Shown piece after piece: positions 15,599 through 57,168 of a DNA stretch of 64,000 bases. Positions within the stretch are counted from its first letter, which is position 1. Each line of letters begins with the position of its first letter. The stretch spans positions 319,894-383,893 of the forward strand of contig NZ_LMUR01000020.1 of the NCBI RefSeq assembly GCF_009765825.1, in the 5' to 3' direction. This stretch comes from Granulicella sp. L60 (GTDB taxonomy: Bacteria > Acidobacteriota > Terriglobia > Terriglobales > Acidobacteriaceae). A program made the translations under genes and the position numbers. The notes below the pieces were generated by a model. That model was not told the origin of the DNA and made no database searches. It was given only the letters and a program-made list of their open reading frames with translations.

Positions 15599-15639
15599 AT
15601 GGCTCCTGAGGTAGGACTCGAACCTACAACCCTTCGGTT
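15599..15639 (-). repeat. attL: 3' part of tRNA-Asn left by island integration
   Basis: These 41 bases are identical to 57093-57133, the T-arm, acceptor and 3' anticodon-stem part of the intact tRNA-Asn. The match continues with one mismatch to 15644. After that the sequence diverges, so the 5' half of the tRNA is absent here and the copy cannot work as a tRNA. The mismatch falls in the anticodon position, consistent with crossover near the anticodon loop. The integrase starts about 200 bp inward. Confidence 0.9.
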
Positions 15640-15758
15640 GACAGGGGCATTTTCGGGTTTGTAGCAGCTTGCAATGCGTTGCATTTTCGTTGATTCTAAT
15701 AGACTTAGAAGACTTGCGACCGCAGCGTATTGCAGTGAACCGCATAGATTCTCAATTT

Positions 15759-15780
15759 GAACAGCCATCAAAACAGCCAC
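15759..15780 (+). repeat. 22-bp repeat, candidate integrase arm site (left)
   Basis: The 22 bases here recur exactly at 57007-57028, next to the right attachment site. Each copy contains two ACAGCCA[TC] units. Placement inside both island ends, 120 bp from attL and 65 bp from attR, fits arm-type binding sites for the integrase. It precedes the preferred start of the integrase gene. Confidence 0.6.
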
Positions 15781-15836
15781 CACTACCCACCTTCGGTGTC
15801 ATTATTAAGGAACAGGATGTTGAAGGTGAGGGCCCC

Positions 15837-16937
15837 GTGGCAAACGCATCGAGCAAGAAACCGAAGCCGATTAAAGGAGTATACGAGCATCCCGTCGATA
15901 GCGGAATTTGGTGGATCAACTACTACGTAGAAGGTCGAAGACACCGCGAAAAAGTTGGCCGCCGCTCCGATGCGGTCACGCTGTATCAGAAGCGGAAAAC
16001 CGATGCCCGCATGGGAGCCAAGTCGCCCGAGATACGGCCACGACGGGCCGTCCTCTTTGAGGAAATTGCCGAAGACGCTCTCGTCTACTCCAAAGAGCAT
16101 AAGGCGTCGTACCCTGGCGACCGCTCCACCATCGGAAAGTTGCTTCCCGTCTTCGGGAAGACACCGGTAACGGAAATCTCCCCACAATCGATCAAAGCCT
16201 ATCTTGATACGCGGGACGACCTGACCAAGACAACGATCAACCGGTATCGCGGGACGATGTCGATGATCTTTCAGGAGGCGATCCGCAACGGAAAGGTGGA
16301 GCAAAATCCAGCTCGCCTCGTTCGCCTGCACCGCGAAGACAACGTTCGGGTACGCTTCGTCACATACGAAGAAGAGGCTTTGATTCGGCGCATCGTTCGC
16401 GAGCGATGCCCTATTCACGAGTCTGAACTCACATTGGCTCTTGAAACCGGAATGCGTCGAGGCGAGCAGTATTCTTTGGAGTGGGACCGCGTGGACTTGG
16501 AGCGTCGCCAGTTGCTCCTACTAAGGACGAAGAACGGGACGGCTCGGGTCGTGATTCTCACAGCCTCTGCGGTGAAAGCTCTTGAAGAGCTGCGGACAAG
16601 GCGCAATCCTGACTCTAAGCAGGTTTGCCTCACCCGATACGGTGAGCCGATGATTTCTCCGCGAGCGTGGTTTGAACTTGTGATGGAAGAAGCCATCAAG
16701 AAGAATCCGGCTCTGCACGATGTGACCTGGCACATTTTCCGGCACACATACATCTCTCGCTTGGTGATGGCCGGAGTTGATCTGCGGACTGTACAAGAGT
16801 TGGCGGGCCATAAAGACATCAAAATGACAACCCGGTACGCTCACCTTGCTCCCTCTCACAAACTCGCCGCTGTTGATCGACTTGCTGAGTATAGGAAGAT
16901 GCAAGAATCGGGCGAAACTGCTCAAGCAGAAGTCTGA
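15837..16937 (+). CDS. int: Tyrosine recombinase/site-specific integrase
   Basis: Counting from GTG 15837 the protein has 366 residues. The catalytic set of the phage integrase family is complete: Arg208 in ETGMRRGE, Lys232 in RTKNG, His299 and Arg302 in HIFRH, His325 in LAGHKD, and the nucleophile Tyr334 in TTRYAHL. An N-terminal AP2-like/SAM-like arm-binding part precedes it. The frame can be extended to 15669, but that would cross the repeated arm site and lacks a ribosome site; GTG 15837 follows GGTGAGG. It lies beside the attL copy of tRNA-Asn and is almost certainly the enzyme that inserted the island. Confidence 0.88.
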   Translation: MANASSKKPKPIKGVYEHPVDSGIWWINYYVEGRRHREKVGRRSDAVTLYQKRKTDARMGAKSPEIRPRRAVLFEEIAEDALVYSKEHKASYPGDRSTIGKLLPVFGKTPVTEISPQSIKAYLDTRDDLTKTTINRYRGTMSMIFQEAIRNGKVEQNPARLVRLHREDNVRVRFVTYEEEALIRRIVRERCPIHESELTLALETGMRRGEQYSLEWDRVDLERRQLLLLRTKNGTARVVILTASAVKALEELRTRRNPDSKQVCLTRYGEPMISPRAWFELVMEEAIKKNPALHDVTWHIFRHTYISRLVMAGVDLRTVQELAGHKDIKMTTRYAHLAPSHKLAAVDRLAEYRKMQESGETAQAEV

Positions 16938-17206
16938 TGGAGCCACGATTTGGCACCTTTGGCTGTGTTCGCACGACATTGAGGTGTTTCGGCGTGGACG
17001 ATGCATTTGCCCATAGCGCGACATTGCACCGGGTTACATCAAATCAATGACTGGGTTACGGTATGAATGCACGGAATGTCGATTTGCTTTCGCTCGGCCA
17101 GACCGAGAGCTTAGTGACACAGCTCTGGGTTGCTGAGCGAAGACTAGAGTTGATCAGGCAGCGGGAATGCCATGTTAACGATAGCCTGATATTTAAAGGA
17201 GCCAAT

Positions 17207-17730
17207 GTGGACAGTGGACGTCTAAAACTCTTGGCGTTGAACATCTCGATACTTTCGTGTCTTCAGGTTGCTGCTCCAATTCTTCTTATCGCGCAGACCG
17301 CCACGATCCACGTTCGCGTCGTCGATGGGCGCACTGGGCATTCCATATCCGGAATGAACCTGGCATTCGTGGACTACCATACCGATCAAAAAGGAGGACA
17401 GCAGGACGACCTAAACGGGAGGAAGTCCGTTACAGCCTCTGCGGATGGCGACTCGTACATTTCGAATCCCGATGCTCATGGAGTCCTCGTCTTCAACGGG
17501 ATGGGTAGAAATGGATTCTGACGCCTTGCTCTAAGCAAAGGTTTTACGATAGCAACACGCGGACTTACGGAAATGACTATCTCTATCCGGTTTCTACCAT
17601 CGTGAACTCGGGCTTCGTGGCCAAGAACAATTGCAGCAAAGTAAGCGCTGCGGCAAAGTCTGGAGAACTCGTTATCTTTATTCGCCCTACAACTTGGTGG
17701 GAAAGGTTTGTTTCAGGTATGAAGTCATGA
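17207..17730 (+). pseudogene. Frameshifted secreted carboxypeptidase-regulatory-like small protein
   Basis: From GTG 17207 (AAAGGAG six bases upstream) the frame gives a signal peptide and then IHVRVVDGRTGHSISGMNL, like the start of acidobacterial carboxypeptidase-regulatory-like secreted proteins. It stops at 17521. In another frame the stretch from 17512 to 17730 encodes WILTPCSKQ and, further on, IVNSGFVAKNNC and ELVIFIRPTTWWERF, which match the usual C-terminal part of the same family. A single-base change between about 17509 and 17518 therefore splits the gene. It could be genuine decay or a sequencing error. Confidence 0.65.
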
Positions 17731-17832
17731 AACGATCGCACTGCTAATCATTAATAATGCTGATACACGCGTTTCCCAGAAGTTGAAGCTCACTGCCGAG
17801 AGACCGACCTAGCGGGGTGACAGGAGGCATTC

Positions 17833-18611
17833 ATGACAGACGAAAAGTCACCAGACGAGGAAATCGAACAAGCCATCAAGAAGTCGGTTGAAAAAGTCGA
17901 ACAGCTTGCTCTGACCATCAGGGATACACCGTCGGCGACGATGATGTCTGGTACCGCAATCTCTTGTTAGGTATTCTCAACTCGGCCTTGCTTGACTTCC
18001 GTTATCTTCAAATTGGCAACAAGCAACACTCTCCCTATCTAGCGGCTTGGAGCTGTCGCAATTTGCTTGAGTTGAAAGTCATCACAACCTACGTGCTCGC
18101 GTCAGCAGACAATGCCAAGACTTTCAAGAATGATTTTGTCGTCGATGCGAAGGAGTTTTACGAGGCCATCAGCAAGAGACACAGGGCTACGCATCCGAAA
18201 CTCATTGCGGCGTGGCAGGCTGGCATGCAGGAGTTTGAAGGCGATGAGCGGCGCGCCTTGGAGGCCGGACTGCAACGAGAGATCGAGCGTGGTCCGCAGA
18301 CCCAGGAAACCGATGAGGAGACCGAAGCGTACAGGAAACTGATGGACGAATTCGGAATCAGTCCGAAGTCGAAGCCCATGCGGTCTGGCGAAATCGCTAA
18401 ATTGATATCCCAGAACGAGGAATTCGACCCGATGTTCAAGGTGTGCTCCAAAATGATGCACAGAACCGCTCTATCGATTGCTGCGAGCACAACGAAGGGT
18501 TCGCTGGACGAGGTCATTCCGCTGCTGGCATCGACGGGAACAGGCGAATTCCTCGCTATCTACGACTTGATCGATCAGCACTTCCGGGCTCGCGGTGTGC
18601 AACTACCGTAA
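17833..18611 (+). pseudogene. Frameshifted hypothetical protein (about 259 aa if repaired)
   Basis: ATG 17833 has a strong AGGAGG seven bases upstream and starts an acidic helical peptide (MTDEKSPDEEIEQ...EQLALTI) that stops at 17967. A second frame, open from 17892, continues through GDDDVWYRNLLLGILNSALLDF to a 215-residue remainder ending at 18611. Joining them at about 17915-17925 gives one helical protein. The C-terminal part has no good start of its own, only a TTG at 17964. I do not recognise the family. It is the second frameshifted gene in a row. Confidence 0.6.
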
Positions 18612-56786: not shown

Positions 56787-56936
56787 TCAGATGTAATCTG
56801 AGTTTCGTACGGTGACCCAAGCAACTAGCTGCGCTTCTGCTTCATTGAAATCGTCCAAAAACAGGTTGACGCGAATGACCGTAGTGACCCGCTGCACCGG
56901 CAGGGCCATCAGTTGTTCCTGAAACGTGGGACTCAT
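56787..56936 (-). CDS. Small hypothetical protein at island right end (49 aa), doubtful
   Basis: ATG 56936 follows GGAG with good spacing and encodes 49 residues starting MSPTFQEQLMALPVQ and ending VTVRNSDYI. No family is recognised. An overlapping minus-strand frame (56824-56108) has no clear start and crosses the polymerase fragment, so it is not called. The gene may be a remnant like its neighbour. Confidence 0.3.
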   Translation of the reverse strand: MSPTFQEQLMALPVQRVTTVIRVNLFLDDFNEAEAQLVAWVTVRNSDYI

Positions 56937-57006
56937 GGCATCTCCGAGAGTGAACCATTTCGACAACTAAGGTGAAGGTGAAACTGTACACAGCCACGAT
57001 ATAACG

Positions 57007-57028
57007 GAACAGCCATCAAAACAGCCAC
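57007..57028 (+). repeat. 22-bp repeat, candidate integrase arm site (right)
   Basis: The sequence is identical to 15759-15780. A further ACAGCCAC unit lies at 56990-56997. The set is 65 bp inside attR. This symmetric placement at both island ends supports integrase arm-site binding. Confidence 0.6.
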
Positions 57029-57045
57029 TCAGCCAAAACGAAGAA

Positions 57046-57064
57046 AGCCACCTCTCGGGTGGCT
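57046..57064 (-). terminator. Terminator downstream of tRNA-Asn
   Basis: AGCCACC-5 nt-GGTGGCT is a perfect 7-bp stem. Read leftward it is followed by TTCTTCGTTTTGG, a T-rich tail. It lies 30 bp beyond the 3' end of tRNA-Asn and is carried by the island, replacing the original chromosomal terminator at 15544-15562. Confidence 0.65.
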
Positions 57065-57092
57065 CCTGCAAGCTGCTGATTATGTTTACTTT

Positions 57093-57133
57093 ATGGCTCC
57101 TGAGGTAGGACTCGAACCTACAACCCTTCGGTT
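57093..57133 (-). repeat. attR: island-side copy of the tRNA-Asn 3' segment
   Basis: The 41 bases are identical to attL at 15599-15639. They form the 3' half of the intact tRNA-Asn, so the island brought a replacement 3' end and restored the gene. Confidence 0.9.
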
Positions 57134-57168
57134 AACAGCCGAATGCTCTGCCATTGAGCTACTCAGGA
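57094..57168 (-). tRNA. tRNA-Asn (anticodon GTT), CCA encoded
   Basis: On the minus strand the 75 bases fold into a standard cloverleaf. The acceptor TCCTGAG pairs with CTCAGGA, followed by discriminator G and CCA. The D-arm has GCTCAATGGCAGAGC, the anticodon stem-loop has CTGTTAA with GTT, and the T-arm has GGTTCGAGTCC. It is the integration target of the island. Confidence 0.93.

Follow-up and report, generated by a model that had tools for sequence, protein, structure and literature searches.

A tRNA-Asn island of Granulicella sp. L60 with a MOBF mobilization module and a putative coupling protein without ATPase

Conjugation research has yet to settle how a coupling protein shares out docking, substrate choice and pumping, and a genomic island of Granulicella sp. 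L60 raises the question in a natural protein. The island, of 41,494 bp (one repeat copy counted), is inserted in tRNA-Asn within a 64,000-nucleotide stretch of contig NZ_LMUR01000020.1 (positions 319,894 to 383,893; hereafter the window, in whose coordinates the features of the island are given in Table 1). Between the genes for a NikA-like relaxosome accessory protein and a TrwC relaxase of the MOBF family it carries a gene for a protein of 301 amino acids (aa). The tRNA island alone is ordinary; the new part is this protein which, as far as its alignments tell, is a coupling protein that has lost its ATPase and kept both ends. What could such a motorless protein do for the element that encodes it?

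The 301-aa protein has no match in Pfam, NCBIfam, PHROGs or PADLOC. Over residues 26-231 it aligns with the 691-aa coupling protein of the resident C17 cluster (27% identity over 211 columns, E 6e-8), which occupies the same operon place, and the N-terminal part of a full-length coupling protein of 669 aa found in that same place at locus L039 aligns with it at 36% over 169 aa (residues 31-198, E 5e-25). By sequence alignment, then, its N-terminal membrane domain is homologous to that of members of the type IV coupling protein (T4CP) family. At the other end, the last 56-67 residues of L039 match the tails of eight motorless relatives (E 7e-6 to 3e-4); the window's own tail has no direct L039 match and aligns only in the multiple alignment. 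A single 695-aa frame in genome G011 is matched by the motorless profile in two pieces, 1-208 and 231-301. Absent are the ~400 residues between N-domain and tail, together with any P-loop or Walker A motif: L039 and P0006 match TrwB_AAD_bind, the window protein does not, and tblastn found no coupling-protein ATPase anywhere in the window. The tails of complete copies read like WDESxWI(D/E) or WDESxGI(D/E), with L192 and L193 deviating most. AlphaFold2 predicts long helices at residues 23-36 and 135-159 with a mixed domain between them (block mean pLDDT of 83-94 at residues 21-150) and has low confidence for most of 176-290, so that we read the protein as a dock, a loose linker and a tail, with predicted membrane insertion. 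Because the nucleotide-binding domain that defines the T4CP family (excerpts of PMC7431656) is absent, the protein cannot, judged by its sequence, be filed as a T4CP.

This architecture is not confined to the window. We read 44 modules, taken from chosen regions and from loci with relaxase relatives: 27 are motorless (253-312 aa), 16 carry a full coupling protein and one is decayed. The latter (L174, G033:C1, 6364-9886) is a motorless module with its relaxase in two pieces and its N-domain cut. In a sample of the class, the motorless profile matches 53 of 399 genomes; whole-profile matches number 18, in 14 of the 399 genomes and in frames of 287-375 aa, and most others are frames of 600-777 aa matched in the N-part only, along with some shorter partial frames. 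Six of the 53 matching genomes belong to other families, again with the N-part only (five of the frames measure 606-728 aa, the sixth 331 aa). A search of the phylum gave matches in 21 of 396 genomes, all coded as the window's family, to which most motorless modules belong; for two of them, L040 and L047, which are from genome bins, no family is assigned. Relatives of the relaxase at the 16 named loci belong to Granulicella, Edaphobacter, other Acidobacteriaceae and, in a few cases, Acidobacteriota without finer placement. Searching plasmids with the sequence of the motorless gene itself found none, and the copy on plasmid pACIX904 was reached via its relaxase. Relatives of the relaxase module also lie near tRNA-Lys(ctt) (L033, 17793-17868; L044, 2782-2857; L045, 4007-4082) and, in L041, near tRNA-Phe, which suggests that the module also moves with integrases specific for other tRNAs.

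The 301-aa gene is kept under purifying selection, looser than that on the relaxase: seven close copies give a dN/dS of 0.34 overall (0.24 for the membrane domain, 0.57 for the linker and 0.43 for the tail), against 0.08 for TrwC. NikA stands at 0.15, and comparisons of the tail with the distant L036, L037 and L038 give 0.13-0.22. As to its history, motorless and full modules are intermixed on a relaxase tree (quick method), with seven label changes, six of them forced by starred branches. This first suggested many independent losses of the motor, a scenario we rejected, since the N-domain tree needs a single change: all 27 motorless rows fall on one side of a branch, itself unsupported (54/60), in groups of 22 (100/98) and 5 (91/71). 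L189, L190 and L191 stand together on the N-domain tree (99/87) and in three places on the relaxase tree, which makes an exchange of the coupling gene among relaxase lineages probable. The history we favour on these trees is that the motor was lost once or twice, long ago, and that such exchange followed. The tail type (W or G) needs one change on the relaxase tree versus three on the N-domain tree (40 rows), and by eye it agrees with the type of the origin of transfer (oriT) motif in 38 of the 38 modules with both (26/26 W, 12/12 G).

By its anatomy the island would be an integrative mobilizable element (IME) and not an integrative and conjugative element (ICE), because integrase, relaxase and candidate oriT are present and no complete type IV secretion system (T4SS; VirB4 and others) was found. 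A site-specific integrase is accompanied by direct-repeat attachment sites, and the island's own relaxase scores 224 bits with NF041492 MobF (cut-off 100), matches PF08751 and combines a TrwC nuclease domain with a C-terminal helicase, as in MOBF. Upstream of NikA lies a conserved block that stops abruptly (9 modules aligned). Of the 43 modules in which NikA is matched, 41 have the motif GACAC(A/G)(T/C)CA(T/C)CCCC, searched as a 16-mer with up to 4 mismatches allowed, at 181-233 nt ahead of that gene; in the remaining two the sequence available upstream is too short. Block and motif, in the place expected of an oriT, make up our candidate. No T4SS gene or coupling ATPase was found in the island, either by Pfam in 30 chosen open reading frames (ORFs) or by tblastn with the proteins of resident clusters; the one exception to the latter is the HTH_17 protein, whose homolog sits just upstream of the T4SS genes of the C17 cluster and is there below the Pfam cut-off. 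The same tblastn search found no T4SS genes in the stretches fetched around the siblings G023, G081 and G090, and Pfam found none of the virion structural, terminase or lysis genes of a prophage among the 30 island ORFs.

The boundaries of the element are as the first-pass annotation had drawn them. The two 41-bp copies of the tRNA-Asn 3' half are identical, the gene directly inside the left one encodes a tyrosine recombinase (PF00589, E 9.8e-28), and a single intact tRNA, recognized by ARAGORN and Rfam, forms the right end. The 40-mer of this repeat has exactly two exact copies in the 5.9-Mb genome, so the match is no tandem tRNA array, the alternative raised at that time. The window holds just two exact direct repeats of at least 20 bp, of which this is one. 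The other, unreported until now, is a 22-bp repeat (GAACAGCCATCAAAACAGCCAC) near each end, containing two AACAGCCA units 12 bp apart; by arithmetic, the chance expectation of a 22-mer repeat anywhere in 64 kb is ~1e-4. In the window the left copy is 159 nt, and the right copy 87 nt, away from the start of the 40-mer. With up to 5 mismatches allowed, the left-type repeat is found 159 nt from the tRNA fragment's outer edge in G081, G023 and G005 (158 in G043). On the side away from the integrase, the right-type repeat is found 88-89 nt from the 40-mer, at the tRNA in G081, G023, G090 and G082 and at a tRNA fragment in G003. These repeats are probably the arm-type sites of the integrase. Both terminators that had been proposed were recovered as hairpins on the tRNA strand. 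The left one lies downstream of the displaced tRNA 3' end, and the right one is probably the element's own, because the same hairpin followed by an arm repeat is found downstream of tRNA-Asn in relatives (3 of 29 loci: L006, L008 and L012; by eye).

Sibling elements at the same site support the view that the window contains an integrated element with both its ends. In G081 and G023 an integrase 96% and 93% identical to the window's adjoins a tRNA fragment, and the complete tRNA gene lies at a distance of 28.6 and 27.1 kb, respectively; tRNA-Asn and end repeats are the same, the spacings alike and the cargo different. At cut-offs of 40% identity over 40% of the length (ORFs of at least 120 aa), NikA, the 301-aa gene and TrwC are common to all three, and no window cargo is present in either sibling. 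At tRNA-Asn of G090 the module is present too, with no integrase closely related to the window's. Relatives of the window integrase (E ≤ 1e-90) occur in 13 of 62 genomes of the genus, source genome included. The 40-mer (up to 2 mismatches) is present in 57 of the 62, with one copy in 36 and two to four in 21, and the latter mark tRNA-Asn, on sequence comparison, as an insertion hot spot. Elements seem to pile up at this site. At locus L121 (G003:C2, 6403-16507), a tRNA-Asn fragment and the adjoining element end lie 10 kb from the intact tRNA.

Where might a motor come from? The source genome has four VirB4 places. Two of them, on contigs C7 and C17, lie in VirB4-T4CP-TrwC clusters with a full coupling protein (TrwC 55% and 53% identical), and Pfam finds VirB2, VirB6, VirB8, VirB9, VirB10 and VirB11 in the C17 cluster; by their gene content we call both ICEs. 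A further MOBF module of this genome (L197, G000:C7:95000-105000) has a 617-aa coupling-protein frame. In Edaphobacter aggregans (L038, 2273-16797) a motorless module and a VirB4 stretch are ~8 kb apart, the latter sharing 74-76% identity with VirB4 of the resident clusters.

We propose, with moderate confidence, that the island is an IME with a MOBF module whose 301-aa protein serves as an adaptor, docking in the T4SS of a helper and holding the element's own relaxosome. Beyond the ends, siblings, genes, domain loss, selection and helper genes observed here, we infer excision, nicking, docking, contact between tail and relaxosome, and transfer. Recombination by the integrase would insert the circular element at the 3' half of tRNA-Asn and give the tRNA a new 3' end and terminator, and excision would probably be helped by the excisionase-like protein. 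Nicking of the candidate oriT, at ~24.1 kb and at or near GACACGTCATCCCC, would fall to TrwC and the NikA-like protein. The N-terminal domain of the 301-aa protein would then sit in the T4SS, or in the coupling-protein ring, of a co-resident ICE, its linker and WDESxWI(D/E) tail would hold the relaxosome, and ATPase motors and channel would come from the helper. Recognition of relaxosomes by a coupling-protein tail is known from F TraD. The membrane domain of R388 TrwB takes part in T4SS contacts and goes to the poles when alone, and a chimera given a heterologous membrane domain is dominant-negative (excerpts of PMC7431656).

The main rival, which we consider unlikely, casts the motorless protein as an inhibitor that takes the place of the coupling protein in resident ICEs and so blocks their transfer, or excludes rival elements, while the element uses the coupling protein of its helper. 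Such a role would suit the dominant-negative chimera with its swapped membrane domain and the polar location of the lone TrwB domain (excerpts of PMC7431656). A pure blocker, however, has no obvious need for a conserved C-terminal tail whose type goes with those of relaxase and oriT, nor for an operon place shared with the relaxase. A decay scenario, which we find improbable, would make the island the crippled descendant of a MOBF element that had a coupling protein to itself; the 301-aa gene would be left over from it, and mobility would be lost. Fragmentary cargo genes (DnaE2, carbonic anhydrase), the decayed L174 in G033 and a dN/dS above that of TrwC, and not below 1 in every tail comparison, speak for decay; but the whole gene is under purifying selection across 10 copies (all 301-codon ones then at hand except L040), the same-site siblings with different cargo suggest movement, and a divergent form of the gene is on pACIX904, typed as mobilizable. 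Small membrane-bound mobilization proteins, e.g. RSF1010 MobB, are known on mobilizable plasmids, and the island could likewise be an ordinary IME whose 301-aa protein, a coupling protein by descent only, now works as a generic membrane helper with a part in relaxase or oriT processing instead of in the T4SS. We find this very improbable: the kept N-domain corresponds to the TrwB membrane domain that interacts with the T4SS (excerpts of PMC7431656), and dN/dS makes it the most constrained part of the protein.

Several observations nonetheless weigh against an adaptor that docks in a helper. The AlphaFold2 model has no significant match in the PDB, the resident coupling proteins are without a WDES tail, and one module among the 44 is decayed. 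The 301-aa gene evolves faster than TrwC, and in some close pairs its short tail is hardly constrained or not at all, with tail dN/dS of 1.54 (window versus L033, on 31 codons), 0.79 (G081) and 0.62 (L035). Tail, oriT and relaxase agree in type over a small number of events, and part of this agreement may come from gene linkage. The VirB4 family (E ≤ 1e-100) is found in 7 of 14 motorless genomes versus 83 of the other 385, a co-occurrence that is suggestive, confounded by kinship and no proof of helper use.

We put about even chances on the wider claim that coupling is separable from the motor in conjugation, with a lineage of MOBF mobilizable elements of Acidobacteriota using a dock-and-tail protein, exchanged among relaxase lineages, to reach the T4SS motor of another element. 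As far as can be read from sequence, these natural proteins keep the docking and substrate-choice parts and drop the pump, all in the same operon place, so that dock, tail and motor can be tested separately in natural proteins. They also suggest how mobilizable elements of soil Acidobacteriota may travel.

Table 1. Features of the tRNA-Asn island and its ends, in window coordinates.
Feature	Position	Strand	Remarks
Terminator-like hairpin	15544-15562	-	3' of displaced tRNA end, outside element
Left attachment repeat, displaced tRNA-Asn 3' segment	15599-15639	-	exact repeat
22-bp end repeat, left copy, putative integrase arm sites	15759-15780	+	exact repeat; spacing in relatives
Tyrosine integrase, 366 aa	15837-16937	+	PF00589; catalytic R-K-HxxR-H-Y by eye; likely GTG start 15837
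215-aa gene, function unassigned	17964-18611	+	92% identical in sibling G090
HTH_17 / excisionase-family protein	18937-19251	-	likely ATG 19245; candidate directionality factor or regulator
MOBF (TrwC) relaxase-helicase	19327-22131	-	PF08751, NF041492
Putative motorless coupling protein, 301 aa	22555-23460	-	T4CP N-terminal membrane domain and C-terminal tail, no ATPase
NikA-like relaxosome accessory protein	23460-23897	-	Pfam
Candidate oriT	23898-24124	-	conserved block; motif CTGACACGTCATCCCC 24086-24101; hairpin CGCTGCTTCGCAGCG 24110-24124
Cargo, 187-aa ORF, candidate defence family PDC-S44	24395-24958	+	profile positions 5-171 of 277, E 3e-53
Cargo block	25985-40867		sensor kinases 25985, 34431; response regulators 28957, 29481, 33173, 37568, 38871, 40061; hydrolase 30422; FAD enzyme 31570, nearest thioredoxin reductases
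Cargo block	41423-49597		AraC regulator, outer-membrane factor, membrane fusion protein, RND pump, MFS transporter
Cargo block	49737-56466		partial carbonic anhydrase, epoxide hydrolase, SDR, RidA-like, nitronate monooxygenase, ECF sigma factor, DnaE2 fragment
22-bp end repeat, right copy	57007-57028	+	exact repeat; spacing in relatives
Terminator-like hairpin 3' of intact tRNA-Asn, within element	57044-57066	-	hairpin; relatives
Right attachment repeat, within intact tRNA gene	57093-57133	-	exact repeat
Intact tRNA-Asn(gtt)	57094-57168	-	ARAGORN, Rfam

Some of the cargo is incomplete. The error-prone DnaE2 fragment (55801-56466), near the right end of the element, covers residues 571-788 of 1047 of NF004225, and the carbonic anhydrase (49737-50249), with less than half of the Pfam profile covered, is probably broken. 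Two facing LuxR-type response regulators (38871-39653 and 40061-40867) share a 23-bp inverted repeat (39486-39508 / 40230-40252) and are perhaps paralogs. The PDC-S44 match is close to the candidate oriT.

The chromosome around the island gave a less even picture. An empty tRNA-Asn site joining the left, sulfatase side to the right, CAP-protein side had been anticipated; in 80 relatives searched, none of the matches listed spans both flanks, all being limited to the tRNA and portions of a single flank. Conservation is seen on the CAP side, whose gene adjoins tRNA-Asn in 20 of 29 fetched loci, whereas the sulfatase side gave one match, at 26%. With no spanning match and so low an identity, the left neighbour cannot be shown to be original chromosome, and no original left neighbour of tRNA-Asn was found in the relatives searched. 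Homologs of the left-flank sulfatase (E ≤ 1e-60) occur in 20 of the 60 genus genomes searched, source genome included; in G045 one adjoins tRNA-Asn, but on the opposite side. The left neighbour (9000-15598) has a G+C content of 0.529, compared with 0.58 further left and 0.59 on the right, was not found left of the tRNA in the relatives inspected, and may be an older insertion.

Known systems come close to the module from several sides. Plasmid R388 has the order oriT-trwA-trwB-trwC, and the island shares with it oriT (here a candidate), small DNA-binding accessory protein, coupling protein and TrwC in the same order; it differs in that its trwB equivalent is without the ATPase part and no T4SS genes follow. 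We found no report of a mobilizable element with an ATPase-less coupling protein in PMC literature covered by titles and abstract openings, a body outside which many subscription papers fall. Canonical IMEs likewise have their own integrase, relaxase and oriT, no mating pore and a dependence on helpers (excerpts of PMC5704250), but the window element has a MOBF relaxase and a coupling protein without ATPase. In the excerpts of that 2017 review, the known canonical IMEs use MobP, MobQ, MobV or MobC relaxases and none MobF or MobH, and two putative streptococcal IMEs have a VirD4 coupling protein with MobC (PMC5704250); MOBF would thus be added to the IME relaxases described there. CloDF13 MobB is a coupling protein whose gene is likewise the mobilizable element's own, although it is a whole coupling protein, of a MOBC plasmid, with an essential membrane domain (excerpts of PMC7431656). 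Related as well are the modules with full-length T4CPs (L039, L175-L188, L193), which have the same gene order, a homologous N-domain and mostly the same tail and oriT motifs. They differ in having Walker A, in size (651-745 aa where complete, the 745 aa of L186 with a doubtful start; L176 is cut by a contig end) and in the gap between T4CP and relaxase of 0.05-3.4 kb; they were read in 20-kb regions, so that a T4SS further away may be missed. In L039, L175, L178-L181 and L183-L188 the gap to the relaxase gene is 0.9-3.4 kb. A parallel in gene content outside a chromosome is pACIX904 of Granulicella tundricola (NC_015059.1), typed as mobilizable by MOB-suite, which has a NikA-like protein, a 311-aa motorless protein annotated as 'hypothetical protein' (WP_013573172.1) and mobF; it differs from the island in being a plasmid, not integrated, and its protein belongs to the second, divergent motorless group (L194).

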